A stretch of 36,334 nucleotides of DNA from Pseudomonadota bacterium (GTDB taxonomy: Bacteria; Pseudomonadota; Alphaproteobacteria; Rhizobiales; Hyphomicrobiaceae). Below are positions 14,474-23,114 of this stretch, piece by piece; within the stretch, counting starts at the first letter, position 1, and each line of letters begins with the position of its first letter. The stretch lies in assembly GCA_963205015.1 (NCBI GenBank), contig CAUJKI010000540.1, positions 1 to 36,334 of the forward strand, written 5' to 3'. The notes beneath the pieces are model-generated. The model was not told the origin of the DNA. It saw nothing but the letters and a program-made list of their open reading frames with translations, and ran no database searches. The translations under genes and the position numbers were made by a program.

Positions 14474-15595
14474 TCACCTGAAGAAAACGTCGGCGCGCAT
14501 GCCTGGCAGCAGCGGAGAGCTGCCTTCGAGGTCGACCATGACCTCCATCACCTCGACATCCGTGGCACGGCGCGCCCCGCGAGAGCCCATGCGCGGCATC
14601 GCGAGCGAGGGCGCAAGATCCTTCACCGTGCCGCTGAACTCCCGACCTGGATAGGCCGTGCTGCGCACGAAGACCTGCTGCCCAGCCTTGATCTTCGCGA
14701 CGTCCTGCTCGTCGACCTCGGCGCGGACGCGCATCAGTGTCAGATCACCCATGATCAGAAGAACGTGCTCGCTGGAGGGCATGGCAAGCTCGCCGGCTTT
14801 GGCGTGGATCTGTAGTACCGATCCGGTAAGGGGCGCGCGAACGCGCATCTTCTCGACCATTTCCTCGGCGAGGGTCAACTCGGCGCGGGCCGCGATGAGC
14901 GCCGCCTCGACGCGATTGGGTGCCGGCACTTTGGATTTGGCATGCGCCATGGCCAAAGCCGTGCGCTCCTGTCGTAGCTTGTCCTCGGCCTGTGCGAGCT
15001 GATTGCGCGCCTGGATGAGTGCCTGCGGATTGCCGGCTGCCCTGCGATCCGCAGCGATCACGCCGTCGAGGGCGAAGCGTGCGTTGGTCGAGGCGCGCTC
15101 GGCAGTATAGAGCGCGTCCTCGGCCTTGCGCACGTCCTCGCGCCCGGCCGTCTCGGGCTGCGCGTCGCGCTCGCGCTGGCGCACGGAGACTTCGACCTCG
15201 GCCGCCGCGAGGCGCGCGCGCGCTTCCTTGTCGTTGAGGCGGACCAGCACGTCGCCCTTGGTGACGCGGTCGCCGGTGGCGGCATTCACCTCCTGAATGC
15301 GGCCCGGCGCGAGAGAGCTCACGCGGATCTGCCCCGAGCGCGGCTCGACCCGTCCGGGTGCCGCTGCGATCCACGTCGTTTGCGGACGTTCGGTAACCGG
15401 CTGCGCGGGAATTGCGGAAGCTGGTGCGATCGCTGCCGCGAAATGCTTGGGTGCGGCCTGCATCGCCGCGAGGACGGAGGCCGAGCCTGCAGCGAAGAGG
15501 CCGAGCATCAGGACAAGTCGGCGTCCTCGCCCATGGGAGCGGTCTGCGTTTGCCATCGACTGCGGTTGGCTGGTGGTCTGCTGGTGCGACTGCAT
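14474..15595 (-). CDS. HlyD/DevB-like periplasmic adaptor (membrane fusion) subunit of an ABC exporter
   Basis: N-terminal TM, then PGRVEPRSGQIRVSSLAPGRIQEVNAATGDRVTKGDVLVRLNDKEARARL (lipoyl domain), coiled coil and MRVRAPLTGSVLQIHAKAGE...LTLMRVRAEVDEQDVAKIKAGQQV. Confidence 0.88.
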   Translation of the reverse strand: MQSHQQTTSQPQSMANADRSHGRGRRLVLMLGLFAAGSASVLAAMQAAPKHFAAAIAPASAIPAQPVTERPQTTWIAAAPGRVEPRSGQIRVSSLAPGRIQEVNAATGDRVTKGDVLVRLNDKEARARLAAAEVEVSVRQRERDAQPETAGREDVRKAEDALYTAERASTNARFALDGVIAADRRAAGNPQALIQARNQLAQAEDKLRQERTALAMAHAKSKVPAPNRVEAALIAARAELTLAEEMVEKMRVRAPLTGSVLQIHAKAGELAMPSSEHVLLIMGDLTLMRVRAEVDEQDVAKIKAGQQVFVRSTAYPGREFSGTVKDLAPSLAMPRMGSRGARRATDVEVMEVMVDLEGSSPLLPGMRADVFFR

Positions 15596-15690: not shown

Positions 15691-15708
15691 CTGTTTCGCA
15701 GGGAACAG
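15691..15708 (-). promoter_or_regulatory. Palindromic operator A (CTGTTTCGCAGGGAACAG)
   Basis: One of six matching 18-mers; upstream of the DevB-like gene; TAGGGT hexamer 29.5 nt from its centre on the minus strand. Confidence 0.75.
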
Positions 15709-15742: not shown

Positions 15743-15760
15743 CTGTTATGCCGGTAACAG
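15743..15760 (+). promoter_or_regulatory. Palindromic operator B (CTGTTATGCCGGTAACAG)
   Basis: One of six; upstream of the small CSP/OB-like gene; AATGCT 29.5 nt from its centre. Confidence 0.7.
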
Positions 15761-15847: not shown

Positions 15848-16072
15848 ATGCAGGGCGAAATCACGAAATATCGCGACGATCTCGGGTTCGGCGTCATCAC
15901 GACCGATGACGGGCGCCGCTATCGCTTCGCCAGGAAGCAGGTCATCAGCGCCTCGGCGGACCTTGTCGGGCAGGAAGTCGATTTCCTCATTTCGGGGAAC
16001 CAGCCGGCGGAGATCATCGTCCTATCGGGATCGGCGTGGACAGCCTTTGGCGGCATTCCCGGAACGGCATGA
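15848..16072 (+). CDS. Small cold-shock/OB-fold-like protein (74 aa)
   Basis: MQGEITKYRDDLGFGVITTDDGRRYRFARKQVISASADLVGQEVDFLISG resembles a CSD-like G-x-I...GFGxI pattern; ribosome-binding site AAGGAGAG. Confidence 0.72.
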   Translation: MQGEITKYRDDLGFGVITTDDGRRYRFARKQVISASADLVGQEVDFLISGNQPAEIIVLSGSAWTAFGGIPGTA

Positions 16073-16255: not shown

Positions 16256-16453
16256 TCAGCGCGCGTGAACGCGCAGGATAGGGGCGCGCAACCAGAGGAG
16301 GTTCGGGCAGAGCGTCTGCGTGCACTGGCGCGTGGCGGAAGCGCCATCTTCCGCTGGCGTGGTGGGAGATGCGGTGGCCCAGCTTCCGACGAAGGTGCCG
16401 ATCATGACGGCGGCGAGCATGGCCAGACTACGAGGTTTCATCAGCGTGTGCAT
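16256..16453 (-). CDS. Small secreted protein (65 aa) with signal peptide
   Basis: MHTLMKPRSLAMLAAVMIGTFVGSWATASPTTPAEDGASATRQCTQTLCPNLLWLRAPILRVHAR: Lys/Arg plus hydrophobic h-region and AxA-like cleavage site; operator C lies 60 bp upstream. Confidence 0.55.
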   Translation of the reverse strand: MHTLMKPRSLAMLAAVMIGTFVGSWATASPTTPAEDGASATRQCTQTLCPNLLWLRAPILRVHAR

Positions 16454-16512: not shown

Positions 16513-16530
16513 CTGTTCCGTCCGGAACAG
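16513..16530 (-). promoter_or_regulatory. Palindromic operator C (CTGTTCCGTCCGGAACAG)
   Basis: Perfect palindrome in its outer 7-bp arms; upstream of the 65-aa secreted ORF; CACACT about 30.5 nt from its centre on the minus strand. Confidence 0.75.
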
Positions 16531-16543
16531 TGGGCTGGCGGGG

Positions 16544-17887
16544 CTAAAGTGTCGAGCGCGCCACCGGACCTGCCAGGGTGCCCTCTTGCGGCACCAGTAG
16601 CGGTTCGCTCGTGGTGACAGTACCGCCGCGGTGCTCAGGGCGCCGTCCTTTCAGGAACCAGGTGTGCACTGCGCCATATCCCTTGATGTCGATGCTGCCG
16701 TTCGGCTCGAGCCGGTAGCCATCGCCGAGGCGGATCTGCGTCAGTTCGGATACGAGGATGGCATGGGGTTGGCTCAGGTTCTCGAGGCGCGAGGCGAGGT
16801 TCACCGTATCGCCCCACACATCGTAGATCAGACGCTTCGCCCCGATCACGCCGGCCAGCACGGGCCCGCTGGCTATGCCGATGCGAAGCGCGATGTCGAC
16901 GTCGTGCTCCTTTGATATGCGCTGAGCAGCATCGAGCATACCGAGTGCCATGCCGGCAATTCGATCCGCATGATCTGCAGCAGGCACCGGCAAGCCGGCC
17001 GCAGCCATATAGGCGTCGCCGATGGTCTTGATCTTCTCCACGCCGCAGCGCTCGGCCAGCTCATCGAAGGCGCGCACGATCGTGTTGAGAAGCGCAACTG
17101 TTCGCGCGGGGCCAAGCTCTTTGGCGAGCGCAACGAAGCCCTTGATGTCGGCAAAGAGGACGGACGCCTCGTCGAACTCGTTGGCAATGGTCGTGTCGGG
17201 CGCCTCTTTCAGTTTGCCGACGATAGTGTCCGGCAGGATATTGTGCAGGAGCGCGTCCGTTTCGGCTTCGGCCTGCTCGACGAGGCGGAACGCATAGTAG
17301 AGCACGATCGAGATGACACAGAATGTGGTGGCCACGGCGGTGACGTGAAGCGACGCGATGTCGGCGGCGGAGATGACCAGCCCTTGGGCACTCTCGAGAA
17401 AGAACAGCCAGGCCATCAGATACAGGGTGATCGCGACGGCGATGGCGACGACGATGAGCTTCAGCCGTTCGACGCCCAGGATGACGAAGAAGGCCGCGGG
17501 GGCAGCGAAGTACTGCATATGGATGCCCGTTTCGCGCCCGACGTAGGAGGTCAGGACGAAGATGCCGACGAGCTCCGAGATCAGGATCGCCATGGGGCCG
17601 ACCAGCTCGCCATAGCGATGCAGGAAAGGAATCGACAGGGCAACCATGGCCATCAGGAAATTGATGATGATGACCGGCTTCCAGGATTGGTAATCCAGGA
17701 ACATCTGCTGGAAGGCATAGACGAGGGTGAAGAGCGCGATCACGTACGCCGTGACATTCATGATCTTGAGGCGGCGTCTCACGCGGGGAGGATAGCCCTC
17801 GGTGCCATACGCAGACAGCCGCGAGAGTGAGCTGGCGAGCTTGCGTAGGACCGGGTTATCCAAAAGTGGGATGCGAGACCGCCCCAT
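16544..17887 (-). CDS. Membrane-anchored class III adenylate cyclase
   Basis: About six N-terminal TM segments, then VLFADIKGFVALAKE, EKIKTIGDAYMAAAG and IYDVWGDTVNLASRLE: metal-binding Asp pair, Lys/Asp ATP specificity pair and Asn/Arg transition-state residues all present. Confidence 0.92.
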   Translation of the reverse strand: MGRSRIPLLDNPVLRKLASSLSRLSAYGTEGYPPRVRRRLKIMNVTAYVIALFTLVYAFQQMFLDYQSWKPVIIINFLMAMVALSIPFLHRYGELVGPMAILISELVGIFVLTSYVGRETGIHMQYFAAPAAFFVILGVERLKLIVVAIAVAITLYLMAWLFFLESAQGLVISAADIASLHVTAVATTFCVISIVLYYAFRLVEQAEAETDALLHNILPDTIVGKLKEAPDTTIANEFDEASVLFADIKGFVALAKELGPARTVALLNTIVRAFDELAERCGVEKIKTIGDAYMAAAGLPVPAADHADRIAGMALGMLDAAQRISKEHDVDIALRIGIASGPVLAGVIGAKRLIYDVWGDTVNLASRLENLSQPHAILVSELTQIRLGDGYRLEPNGSIDIKGYGAVHTWFLKGRRPEHRGGTVTTSEPLLVPQEGTLAGPVARSTL

Positions 17888-18053: not shown

Positions 18054-18755
18054 ATGGATCACAAGACAATTGCCCTACTGCTGGCGCAGACGGATCTTTT
18101 CCGCGATCTCGATGATGGCGACCGGCTGGCCGTCGTCGGCCGCATGCGGCGCGTTCAATTCGAAACGAACCAGATGATCTTCTCGCGCGGAGACCCCGGC
18201 CGGGAGATTTATCTTGTGCTCGATGGGCGCATTCGCCTGTCGGTGCTGTCGGCCGAGGGACGGGAGCTGTCGTTCGCGCACGCCGGGCCAGGCCAGCTCT
18301 TTGGCGAGATCGCGACGCTCGACGGCGGTGAGCGGACCGCGGGTGCGACGGCGATCGGTCCTGTCAGCGCCATGAGCCTTCCCCAGAAGGCACTCATCGA
18401 GTTGATCGAGAACCACCCCAAGGTGGCCAAGGCGGCCATCCGTTTCCTCTGCCAGCGTCTCAGGGATACGGACCATAAGCTCGAGGCCATCGCGCTGCAT
18501 CGCATCGAGGTACGCCTCGCGCGGCTCATGCTTTCCGCGATCAAGCTGCAGGGCGCGGTGCCGAAGAACGGCGAAGTCAGGCTCGATCTCGGGCTTTCGC
18601 AGAGTGAGGTGGGGCTCCTGATCGGCGCGAGCCGGCCGAAGGTCAATCTGGCGCTCACGGCACTCGAGGACATGGGCGCGATCACGAGATCGGGCGCCGC
18701 CTACGTCTGCGACATCGAGGTCCTCGGCTCCGTGGCGGATATGGATACGGCCTGA
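18054..18755 (+). CDS. Crp/Fnr family transcriptional regulator
   Basis: cNMP-binding domain (FGEIATLDGGERTAGATA) and C-terminal HTH (LGLSQSEVGLLIGASRPKVNLALTALEDMGAI). Confidence 0.93.
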   Translation: MDHKTIALLLAQTDLFRDLDDGDRLAVVGRMRRVQFETNQMIFSRGDPGREIYLVLDGRIRLSVLSAEGRELSFAHAGPGQLFGEIATLDGGERTAGATAIGPVSAMSLPQKALIELIENHPKVAKAAIRFLCQRLRDTDHKLEAIALHRIEVRLARLMLSAIKLQGAVPKNGEVRLDLGLSQSEVGLLIGASRPKVNLALTALEDMGAITRSGAAYVCDIEVLGSVADMDTA

Positions 18756-18867: not shown

Positions 18868-18885
18868 TTGTTCCAGGCGGAACAG
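18868..18885 (+). promoter_or_regulatory. Palindromic operator D (TTGTTCCAGGCGGAACAG)
   Basis: One of six; upstream of the esterase gene; TACGGT at 18906, 29.5 nt from its centre. Confidence 0.75.
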
Positions 18886-18944: not shown

Positions 18945-19805
18945 ATGACCTTCGAGAACCAGGGCTACTATGTCGCCGGCGGCCGTACCGGTGTGCTGCT
19001 GATGCACGGCCTGTGCGGCACGCCGACCGAGATGCGCTTCGTGGCAAACGGCCTGGCGCGGACGGGATGCACCGTCTACTGCCCCATGCTTGCAGGCCAT
19101 GGCGGCACGGAAGCGGACATCAAGTCCACCACCTGGCAGGACTGGTACGGGAGCGCGGAGCGAGCCCTCGACCGCCTGTGCAAGGAGTGCGACACCGTCA
19201 TCGTCGGCGGCCTTTCCACGGGCGCCGTGCTCGCCCTGCTGCTCGCCGCGCGCCGCCCCGCCGATGTGCAGGGCACGGCCCTGCTGGCGCCGACGCTCTG
19301 GCTCAACGGCTGGCTCATTCCCTGGTATGCGCGGCTTTTCCGCCTCGTTTTCAGCACGCGCGTTGCCAACCTGATCGGCTTTCCCGATCTCCATCCGCAC
19401 GGCATCAAGGACGAGCGCATCCGCGAGTTCATTCGCAATGCGCTCTTCAGCGGCGATGGCTCCGTGGCCGGCCTGCCGTCCACGCCGGGCGGCGCAGTCC
19501 TGGAGCACCGGCGTCTGGTCCAGGCCACGTGCGCCGAGCTCGGCCGTATCGAGCAGCCGACCCTGATCATTCACCCGCGCGAGGACGACTACGCCGACCT
19601 CGACAACGCCTGGTACCTCCAGCGCCGACTCAAGGGCTTGGTCGACATGGTGGTGCTCGATGACAGCTATCACATCGTCACGGTCGATCGTCAGCGCCAC
19701 GTGGTCGTCGAGCGGATTGCCGCGTTCGTGGGGGCCGTTGCGGCCCGCTTGAGCGGCAAGGCGGGCTCCGCCCGCAACGGCGCGACGGCACGTGCAGCGG
19801 CCTGA
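18945..19805 (+). CDS. Alpha/beta hydrolase, carboxylesterase/monoacylglycerol-lipase-like
   Basis: VLLMHGLCGTPTEMRFVANGLA, nucleophile elbow GLSTG, HPREDDYAD and DDSYHIVTVD complete a Ser-Asp-His triad like Est30/YvaK. Confidence 0.88.
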   Translation: MTFENQGYYVAGGRTGVLLMHGLCGTPTEMRFVANGLARTGCTVYCPMLAGHGGTEADIKSTTWQDWYGSAERALDRLCKECDTVIVGGLSTGAVLALLLAARRPADVQGTALLAPTLWLNGWLIPWYARLFRLVFSTRVANLIGFPDLHPHGIKDERIREFIRNALFSGDGSVAGLPSTPGGAVLEHRRLVQATCAELGRIEQPTLIIHPREDDYADLDNAWYLQRRLKGLVDMVVLDDSYHIVTVDRQRHVVVERIAAFVGAVAARLSGKAGSARNGATARAAA

Positions 19806-19830: not shown

Positions 19831-19848
19831 CTGTACCCCGCGGAACAG
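19831..19848 (+). promoter_or_regulatory. Palindromic operator E (CTGTACCCCGCGGAACAG)
   Basis: One of six; upstream of the secreted protein and DevC-DevA genes; CACAAT at 19869, 29.5 nt from its centre. Confidence 0.72.
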
Positions 19849-19905: not shown

Positions 19906-20553
19906 ATGACCAAGCTTCCCATCGCCCTCGCCACCCTGGCCATTGCTGCTGCTTCGTCCATCACGCTCACCACCGAAGCCGATGCTCGCGGAGGACATCG
20001 CGGACACTTCCGCTTCCATCACATCCACGTCGGTCCCCCCATCTATCGTTATGAGGAGCCGGAGCGCGTCTATCGCAAGCCGAAGGTCGTGAAGCCGGTT
20101 GCGGCTCCCGCCCCCGCTCCCGTCGTCAAGTTCGCGGATGGCGAAGGACGCATGTTCGATCGTGCCAGCAAGACGTGGTTCGACGGCGCCGGCGTCTGCT
20201 GGAAGGGCGAGAAGACGTTCGCTTACCGCAGCGGTTCCTGGTTCTACGGCGATGCGCGCTGGGTGCAGACGAGCACCGGTTGGGGCGTCTCCTCGGGTGA
20301 TCTCCCCGAGCAGGTCGACTGCAGCGCGGTCAAGGCGTTCGTCGGCAAGATCAAGGCGGTGAGCACCGCTGCGGAAGAATCCGCGAACGTGGAGCCAAAG
20401 CCCTCCGCAGCCAAGCAGGCGTCGCCGGTCCGCACCGTTGACCCGGCGCCCGCCATCGTCGCGCCGAAGGCGCCTGAAGCCACGGCCAACGCGAGCGACT
20501 GCAAGAAGTATCTCCCGAGCCTCGGAGAGACCGTCTCCGTTCCCTGCACCTAG
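19906..20553 (+). CDS. Secreted hypothetical protein with signal peptide
   Basis: MTKLPIALATLAIAAASSITLTTEADARGGHRGH...; central Trp/aromatic-rich FDRASKTWFDGAGVCWKGEKTFAYRSGSWFYGDARWVQTSTGWGV; Lys/Pro/Ala-rich C-terminal region. Confidence 0.72.
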   Translation: MTKLPIALATLAIAAASSITLTTEADARGGHRGHFRFHHIHVGPPIYRYEEPERVYRKPKVVKPVAAPAPAPVVKFADGEGRMFDRASKTWFDGAGVCWKGEKTFAYRSGSWFYGDARWVQTSTGWGVSSGDLPEQVDCSAVKAFVGKIKAVSTAAEESANVEPKPSAAKQASPVRTVDPAPAIVAPKAPEATANASDCKKYLPSLGETVSVPCT

Positions 20554-20603: not shown

Positions 20604-21812
20604 ATGCATACGACGGCTGAAGCCACTTCCATCGCCATGCCGGGCCGACCGATGCCGGCCCGCAAGGGGGCGATGCGCCTCCCGATGGTCCCGAAGCTCG
20701 CCTATCGCAATCTCTTTCATGACCGCCTCGGGCTGATTGTGACGGTGGTCGGCATCGTCTTCTCGGTCGTCCTGGTGGCGGTCCAGTTCGGGCTGTACCT
20801 CGGCTCGGAGAACCGCATCGCCGCCATGTTCGATCATGCCGAAGGCGATCTCTGGGTCGTGCCGCTCGGCACGAAGAGCTTCGACGATCCCGCCATGCTC
20901 TCCGGACGCGAGCGCCACAATATCCTCTCAATGCGTGGCGTCGCGAACGTGCAGGAGCTGGCCGTCGGCTTCGTCAACTGGCGCAAACCGAAGGGAGGCT
21001 CGACAGCGGCGCTGCTGGTCGGCTCGGAGATCAGGCAAGGCTCGGCATTGCCGTGGAGCGTGATCGAAGGCAGCGCCAACGCGCTCGCCGCGCCGTCGGC
21101 CGTCGCTGTCGATAGCACGTATTTCCAGGAGCTCGGCATCGCGCGCATGGGCGATCGCGCCGAGATCAATAATATGGACGTCACCGTGCAAGCCGTGACC
21201 AAGGGCATCCGCTCGTTCACGACGCTGCCGTATGTCTTCACCACTCTTTCGACCGCGCGCACGCTGCTCGGCGCATCTGCAGACCAGTCGTCCTACACGC
21301 TCGTCTCGGTTGCGCCAGGCACCTCGGTCGAGGATCTCCGTGCCGCGCTTACGAAGCGCCTGCCGGATACCGAGATCCTGACGCACGCCGAGTTCCGCAA
21401 GCGCAGCCTCGACTACTGGCTGTTCGAGACGGGGGCGGGTGCGGCGCTGATCGCAGGCGCACTGCTCGGTATCATCGTCGGCATGGTGATCGTTGCGCAG
21501 ACGCTCTACGCGAGCACGAAGGATCACCTCAATGAATTCGCGACGCTGCGCGCGCTCGGGGCCTCGGCGAGCTACATCAACAAGGTCATTCTGATCCAGG
21601 CCATTCTCAGTGCAGTGATCGGCTACGTCCTCGGCATGGTTCTGAACCTCATTGTCATCTGGGCCGTGGAAGACTCGACGCTCCTGATCGTCATGACACC
21701 GCGTCTGGCGCTCATGCTGCTCGCCCTGACGGTCGGCATGTGTGTGCTCGCGGCCCTCTGCGCCATCTTCAAAGTCATCCGCATCGATCCGGCCGTGGTG
21801 TTCAGCCGCTGA
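20604..21812 (+). CDS. ABC exporter permease, DevC/FtsX-like
   Basis: LAYRNLFHDRLGLIVTVVGIVFSVVLVAVQFGLYLGSENRIAAMFDHAEGDLWVV...; FtsX-type C-terminal TMs TLYASTKDHLNEFATLRALGAS. Confidence 0.9.
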   Translation: MHTTAEATSIAMPGRPMPARKGAMRLPMVPKLAYRNLFHDRLGLIVTVVGIVFSVVLVAVQFGLYLGSENRIAAMFDHAEGDLWVVPLGTKSFDDPAMLSGRERHNILSMRGVANVQELAVGFVNWRKPKGGSTAALLVGSEIRQGSALPWSVIEGSANALAAPSAVAVDSTYFQELGIARMGDRAEINNMDVTVQAVTKGIRSFTTLPYVFTTLSTARTLLGASADQSSYTLVSVAPGTSVEDLRAALTKRLPDTEILTHAEFRKRSLDYWLFETGAGAALIAGALLGIIVGMVIVAQTLYASTKDHLNEFATLRALGASASYINKVILIQAILSAVIGYVLGMVLNLIVIWAVEDSTLLIVMTPRLALMLLALTVGMCVLAALCAIFKVIRIDPAVVFSR

Positions 21813-21836
21813 CCGCCTTCACTTGGAGAGACGACC

Positions 21837-22568
21837 ATGACGAACTTCATGCTCGAAGCGCGCGACATCACGAAGGTCTACCGCTCGGAAGCCGGTGACA
21901 TCATGCCCCTCAAGGGCGTCAGCGTTGAGCTGGCCGCCGGCGAGCTCACCCTGCTCATGGGCCCGTCCGGCAGCGGCAAGACCACGCTGCTCTCCATCCT
22001 CGGCTGCATCCTCTCGCCGACGAGCGGCAGCCTTCAGATTGCTGGCCACGCGACGGCAGGTCTCAGTGCCGAGGGCATGGCCGGTCTCCGCCGCCGTCAT
22101 GTCGGGTTCGTGTTCCAGTCCTACAACCTCGTGCCGACGCTGACGGCGCTCGAGAACGTCATGCTCGCGCTCGACTTGAGGGGGGCTTCGCGGGCCGAAG
22201 CGCCGGATCTCGCCTGGGAAGCCCTGAGCGCTGTCAGGCTCTCGCATCGCGCGCATGTCATGCCGAGCAAGCTCTCCGGCGGCGAGAAGCAGCGCGTGTC
22301 GATCGCGCGCGCACTGGCCGGCGCGCCGTCAGTGATTCTCGCCGACGAGCCGACAGCGGCGCTCGACAGCGAGAATGGTCAGGCCGTCATGGCGCTGCTT
22401 GCCGAGGTGGCGCGGGACACGCGCCGCGCGGTCCTCGTCGTCACGCACGATCATCGCACGCTCAAGTACGGCGATCGTATGATCCGCATCGAGGATGGCC
22501 GCATCGCAAGCCGCGCCCGTCGCCGCAGTGCGACGGTTGCCGACGTCGAGCTCGCCCCTGCTGCGTAA
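21837..22568 (+). CDS. ABC exporter ATP-binding protein, DevA/LolD-like
   Basis: Walker A GPSGSGKTT, signature LSGGEKQRVSIARAL, Walker B VILADEPTAALD. Confidence 0.95.
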   Translation: MTNFMLEARDITKVYRSEAGDIMPLKGVSVELAAGELTLLMGPSGSGKTTLLSILGCILSPTSGSLQIAGHATAGLSAEGMAGLRRRHVGFVFQSYNLVPTLTALENVMLALDLRGASRAEAPDLAWEALSAVRLSHRAHVMPSKLSGGEKQRVSIARALAGAPSVILADEPTAALDSENGQAVMALLAEVARDTRRAVLVVTHDHRTLKYGDRMIRIEDGRIASRARRRSATVADVELAPAA

Positions 22569-22579
22569 TTTTCGCGATC

Positions 22580-22597
22580 CTGTTTCCGGCGGAACAG
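22580..22597 (+). promoter_or_regulatory. Palindromic operator F (CTGTTTCCGGCGGAACAG)
   Basis: One of six; upstream of the DUF2147 gene; CATACT at 22618, 29.5 nt from its centre. Confidence 0.75.
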
Positions 22598-22694: not shown

Positions 22695-23114
22695 ATGATC
22701 GTTTCCGTCAAGCGCATGGCCCGTGCTGCCGCCCTCTTCGCCGCGAGCATAGCCACGACGACGCCGTCTGCTGCCAACGAGGCGACCGGCCTCTGGTTCG
22801 ACCACACCGGCCGCGGCGCTGTCGAGATCACCAACTGCGGCGACGCACTTTGCGGCCGCATCATCTGGCTCAAGGACACAGCCAACAACAAGACCTGTGG
22901 CAAGCAGGTGATCGGCAACGTAAAGGCTGTTGGCGCCGGCAAATGGGACAAGGGTTGGATCTATGATCCGGAGGACGATGCGCGCTACAGCGTCGAGATC
23001 ACCCCTTTCGGGGGCGACCGGCTGAAGGTCATGGGCTATATGGGAAGCAAGATGCTCAGCGAAACCATGACGTGGCGGCGGGCGCCGGCCGATCTCAAGC
23101 GTTGCAATGCCTGA
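22695..23114 (+). CDS. DUF2147 domain-containing secreted protein
   Basis: GLWFDHTGRGAVEITNCGDALCGRIIWLKD...GWIYDPEDDARYSVEITPFGGDRLKVMGYMG is typical of DUF2147; N-terminal signal peptide. Confidence 0.87.
   Translation: MIVSVKRMARAAALFAASIATTTPSAANEATGLWFDHTGRGAVEITNCGDALCGRIIWLKDTANNKTCGKQVIGNVKAVGAGKWDKGWIYDPEDDARYSVEITPFGGDRLKVMGYMGSKMLSETMTWRRAPADLKRCNA

Follow-up and report, generated by a model that had tools for sequence, protein, structure and literature searches.

A Clr-type Crp regulator of Hyphomicrobiaceae very probably reads Clr-like operators near its own gene, and natural variants suggest a residue that sets one base

Clr of Sinorhizobium meliloti binds the DNA site HGTYHCNNNNGRWACA, with the core GTNNCNNNNGNNAC, as determined by ChIP-seq, EMSA, and a crystal structure (PMC10127613). 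In the Clr-DNA structure, Q184, R195, and N199 read TGT, and GGT on the opposite strand is read by K197, S194, and L152. The equivalent of R185 in E. coli CRP, R200, makes no DNA contact (PMC10127613). Clr answers to both cAMP and cGMP, and CgrA of Rhodospirillum centenum, another cluster G member, is reported to be activated by cGMP (PMC10127613).

The window, which is the whole 36,334-nucleotide stretch of Hyphomicrobiaceae DNA that was analyzed, encodes a protein at 18054-18755 that the initial annotation had described as a Crp/Fnr regulator. We found the open reading frame, the FGE...RTA pocket, and the helix GASRPKVNLALTALE all present as described. The protein matched the Pfam families cNMP_binding (PF00027, 75 bits, 4e-21) and HTH_Crp_2 (PF13545, 36 bits, 8e-9), both over the cut-off. 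It has a cNMP-binding domain and a C-terminal Crp-type HTH, which is the architecture of the Crp-Fnr superfamily. Its nearest solved structure is Clr (7PZA/7PZB), with an E value of 1e-42. E. coli CAP is far behind in the same comparison, at about 4e-13, and the protein thus lies nearer to Clr than to CRP of the main cluster, as is expected of cluster G. The RE(T/M)VGR helix and TGTGA half-site of main-cluster CRP were not found in the protein and its sites, and the NCBIfam CRP model NF008732, with its cut-off of 266, gave the protein only 58.7 bits. By homology, the protein is a Clr-type Crp in cluster G of the superfamily, a kind already known. The initial annotation had treated the DNA specificity as new. 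The altered code appears to be real, but it is the Clr box that has already been described.

The likeness to Clr extends over the two-domain Crp architecture, the helix GASRPKVN, the site GTNNCNNNNGNNAC, and the presence of class III cyclases in the circuit. Five contact residues are identical (Q183, S193, R194, K196, and N198 in the window protein, corresponding to Q184, S194, R195, K197, and N199 in Clr). In Clr numbering, the window protein differs by Leu for Arg 200, Ile for the contact residue Leu 152, and Asp for Thr 141. Furthermore, a single 7-kb cluster holds nearly all exact sites of the window's genome, whereas the Clr regulon is genome-wide. With E. coli CRP/CAP the protein shares the fold (by homology), the Arg equivalent to R180, a 16-bp two-fold site, and the -41.5 class II spacing, but CRP has an RETVGR helix and a TGTGA half-site. 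The literature places CgrA in the same cluster G (PMC10127613).

With up to one mismatch allowed, TGTTC-N6-GAACA matches the window five times, compared with 0.55 expected, and none of 100 shuffles reached that number. These near-palindromic boxes are all intergenic and near the regulator gene (TGTTTC-GCAG-GGAACA, TGTTCC-GTCC-GGAACA, TGTTCC-AGGC-GGAACA, TGTACC-CCGC-GGAACA, and TGTTTC-CGGC-GGAACA), and all five fit the Clr core. The palindrome and the spacing of the proposed operator outline were borne out. However, half-site base 5 is C or T and base 6 is an invariant C, and therefore TGTWYC-N4-GGAACA describes the boxes better than TGTTC-N6-GAACA. The 5.56-Mb genome (687 contigs) matches TGTWYCNNNNGGAACA exactly in six places, five of them within one 6.9-kb stretch. 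Because the pattern was read off the five window sites, their count is given by construction, and the informative part is that only one match lies elsewhere. That sole further site (L010 1501-1516; G000:C685:2752-2767) stands before a short ORF of about 41 codons for a small membrane-type peptide. The coordinates of the features in the window are collected in Table 1.

Table 1. Regulator, cyclase, candidate operators, and predicted target genes in the window
Feature	Position	Strand	Remarks
Clr-type (cluster G) Crp/Fnr regulator, 233 aa	18054..18755	+	Pfam, Clr homology
Recognition helix GASRPKVNLALTALE, residues 191-205	18624..18668	+	GASRPKVN as in Clr
Membrane adenylate cyclase, MASE7 + class III catalytic domain	16544..17887	-	PF20967 + PF00211; divergent neighbour of regulator
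Clr box TGTTTCGCAGGGAACA	15692..15707	.	Faces HlyD/DevB-like gene; conserved in L070, L071
Weaker site TGTTATGCCGGTAACA, one mismatch to Clr core	15744..15759	+	Faces small ORF 15848-16072
Clr box TGTTCCGTCCGGAACA	16514..16529	.	Just past cyclase stop; conserved in L070, L071
Clr box TGTTCCAGGCGGAACA	18869..18884	+	Faces alpha/beta hydrolase; conserved in L070, L071
Clr box TGTACCCCGCGGAACA	19832..19847	+	Faces secreted protein + DevC/DevA-like genes; conserved in L070, L071
Clr box TGTTTCCGGCGGAACA	22581..22596	+	Faces DUF2147 gene; conserved in L070, L071
Predicted target, HlyD/DevB-like membrane fusion protein	14474..15595	-	
Predicted target, small protein, no Pfam family	15848..16072	+	
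Predicted target, alpha/beta hydrolase (Hydrolase_4)	18945..19805	+	Pfam
Predicted target with signal-peptide-like start, no family	19906..20553	+	
Predicted target, DevC-like FtsX/MacB permease	20604..21812	+	
Predicted target, DevA/LolD-like ABC ATPase	21837..22568	+	
Predicted target, DUF2147 protein	22695..23114	+	PF09917, 4.6e-22

The boxes have the geometry of a class II activator. Among 101 non-redundant oriented contexts, 27 have a [TC]AnnnT hexamer that starts exactly 21 nt past the site, compared with about one at each other offset. Four of the five window sites have such a -10-like element at 21 nt: TAGGGT for 15692 (on the minus strand), TACGGT for 18869, CACAAT for 19832, and CATACT for 22581. 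If the hexamer occupies -12 to -7, the 21-nt spacing puts the center of the site at -41.5, which is the class II position of CRP. No -10 element was found at class II distance from the box at 16514, which is upstream of a small ORF (16256-16453, minus strand) with a signal-peptide-like start. The GGAACA half is usually followed on the promoter side by GCGCC (GGAACAGCGCC at many sites), as seen at 18869, 19832, 22581, and 15744 and in relatives. The HlyD, FtsX/MacB permease, and ABC ATPase genes (14474-15595 and 20604-22568) resemble the exporter components DevB, DevC, and DevA, with scores all under the curated cut-offs.

We then compared the regulator and its sites across 103 Hyphomicrobiaceae genomes, counting as orthologues those with E below 1e-40. 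An orthologue was found in 88 of the 103 genomes. The Clr system, which was described from Sinorhizobium, thus seems close to universal in this family, where it comes with a partner cyclase and a fitting operator. In the 88 genomes, TGTWYCNNNNGGAACA had 973 matches against 187 for a reversed-pattern control, about five times as many. In the 15 genomes lacking an orthologue, it had 28 matches against 41, which is not above the control. The motif excess differed between the two groups (Mann-Whitney p 2e-7), but the controls did not. Four of the 88 genomes had no TGTWYCNNNNGGAACA match (G005, G007, G035, and G039). Two of these, G035 and G039, encode SRPKVN and lack TGTWYC-N4-GGAACA; each has two TGTAYC-N4-GRTACA sites, which fit the Clr core. 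Conversely, the motif was present and the orthologue undetected in G071 and G089. Both assemblies are fragmented, and the gene may simply be missing from them.

The sites are also conserved in place. In two genomes of the same genus (L070 and L071), all five window sites stand before the same genes, and TGTTATGCCGGGAACA occupies the place of the weaker site at 15744. In another genus (L103 and L136), the cluster is rearranged, yet sites still precede orthologues of the target genes, including the hydrolase (18869) and DUF2147 (22581) genes. Among the relatives, the locus L057 is 89% identical. A scan of named genomes turned up a single near-identical locus; the other Crp proteins it returned were distant, and those with a readable helix were of the SRES type and had no such sites. 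In same-genus genomes without Clr, the hydrolase homologues are no closer than paralogues in the window's own genome, which makes these genomes uninformative as controls for the targets. One same-genus genome carries a second Clr-type paralogue with the helix SRSKVNRAL (L076; G027:C2:1243215-1243883), and we found no operator near it.

Taken as a whole, the locus is in all likelihood best explained by a Clr-type Crp acting with a cyclic nucleotide on class II boxes. The nucleotide would bind the N-terminal domain of the regulator and is most likely cAMP, with the neighboring MASE7 adenylate cyclase as its source. The ligand-bound dimer would then bind the TGTWYC-N4-GGAACA boxes centered at -41.5 and activate the local genes in class II fashion, namely the exporter parts, the alpha/beta hydrolase, the DUF2147 protein, and small secreted proteins. 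It is extremely improbable that the boxes are instead -35 elements of EcfG, the general stress sigma factor of alphaproteobacteria (GGAAC-N16/17-GTT). A GTT does follow GGAAC after 16 nt at 18869, but L070 and L071 do not conserve it and the other window sites lack it; the boxes are two-sided palindromes, and what is conserved downstream, at 21 nt, is a TAnnnT-like element. We rejected the EcfG reading because GGAAC-N16/17-GTT is not conserved. The initial annotation had linked the protein to the operators and had named another Crp/Fnr paralogue as what would count against that link. The window's genome does have six other HTH_Crp_2 matches over the cut-off, at least one of which looks like another HTH type. 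It is nevertheless very improbable that one of these reads the boxes while the 18054-18755 protein reads something else. The SRPKVN-type helix is absent from the other Crp-type proteins found in the genome, and their helices are quite different (for example, TLHTVS, TIETVS, RRQTIT, and VVHMNR). The motif also tracks orthologues of the window protein across the family, and the box is the Clr site. From the homology to Clr with its published site, the co-occurrence in 103 genomes, the conserved sites, and a helix unique among the Crp-type proteins found in the genome, we infer that the 18054-18755 protein very probably reads the window operators, in support of the proposed link.

The identity of the ligand has to be weighed separately. 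The cyclase at 16544-17887 has the membrane adenylate cyclase 7yzi as its best solved relative (3e-73), and the alignment includes the segments EKIK..GD and YDVWGD, whose Lys and Asp substrate residues we take to mark adenylate cyclases. In most loci of the family, a related cyclase gene adjoins the regulator. In the regulator, the FGE and RT pocket residues are kept. On the C-helix, the pair that reads the base (residues 139-140), equivalent to T127/S128 in CAP and T140/T141 in Clr, has the sequence T-D in the window's genus, and most of the family has A-D there (loci L070-L149). Because the window protein has T-D in place of T140/T141, the ligand cannot be transferred from Clr. The Asp could favor guanine or could still bind the adenine amino group. 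One may then read the protein as a receptor of cGMP rather than cAMP, similar to CgrA, with the C-helix Asp reading guanine and the rest of the mechanism unchanged. The substitutions in this pair and the response of Clr to both nucleotides (PMC10127613) speak for that reading. We consider it unlikely, given that an adenylate cyclase is the best match of the neighboring cyclase, which also carries the corresponding Lys and Asp residues. Since the Clr system is so widespread in the family, a cyclic-nucleotide circuit and its predicted targets are open to testing in cultivable relatives.

The initial annotation had explained the altered half-site by three positions of the recognition helix. Of these, the Arg at the R180 position is indeed kept, and in Clr it contacts TGT. 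The Leu equivalent to R185 does not account for the site: the same motif is found with Leu, Ile, Val, Thr, or Ala at this position (199) in orthologues, and Clr has a non-contacting Arg there with the same type of site, so Leu 199 explains nothing. The case of the Pro at position 195, equivalent to E181, is mixed. This position is not among the listed Clr contacts, but in a clade where Gln replaces Pro, the matching base pair has changed from T to C. Position 195 is Pro in nearly all orthologues and Gln (SRQK) in four proteins, from G005, G007, G003, and G001; the last two genomes also carry an SRPK form or a second orthologue. In a comparison that scanned 5' 500 and 3' 300 bp, GTCNC-N4-GNGAC occurred within 500 bp upstream of 4 of 4 SRQK genes and 1 of 75 SRPK genes (Fisher 3e-6), a value that is partly circular, as the motif was first noticed in these upstream regions and only the downstream sites came from a later genome-wide search. 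Sites of the form TGTCMC-N4-GKGACA flank the regulator in G005 (two of the three in the genome) and G007 (both of two), with one before the regulator gene and one before a neighboring AAA/class III cyclase gene.

In CRP, E181 reads position 7, and the sites of the SRQK clade have their T-to-C change at the equivalent position. These natural variants suggest that one residue sets one base. We see an even chance that, in Clr-type regulators, the residue at the E181 position sets half-site base 4, with Pro going with TGT(T/A)- and Gln with TGTC-. All four SRQK proteins form one clade (96/88), and therefore the switch is a single evolutionary event; other differences within the clade could also cause the change of site. 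Our literature searches on the E181 rule and on Hyphomicrobium Crp found no relevant open paper. If the assignment is true, the E181/position-7 rule of CRP extends to a family whose usual Pro is no listed contact, and the SRPK and SRQK forms found in nature give a clean way to test whether one residue can switch the specificity for one base in the Crp family.

The two SRQK genomes that lack an SRPK form, G005 and G007, have no TGTWYC site other than parS-like ones. The parS site of ParB shares its 16-bp outline with a relaxed Clr box and raises the counts of scans. A genome-wide count with the relaxed pattern TGTWYCNNNNGRWACA is misleading for this reason, since that pattern also matches parS (TGTTTCACGTGAAACA). 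G005 has 19 exact copies of parS, eight of which lie within about 7 kb (for example, C62:25834-32879).
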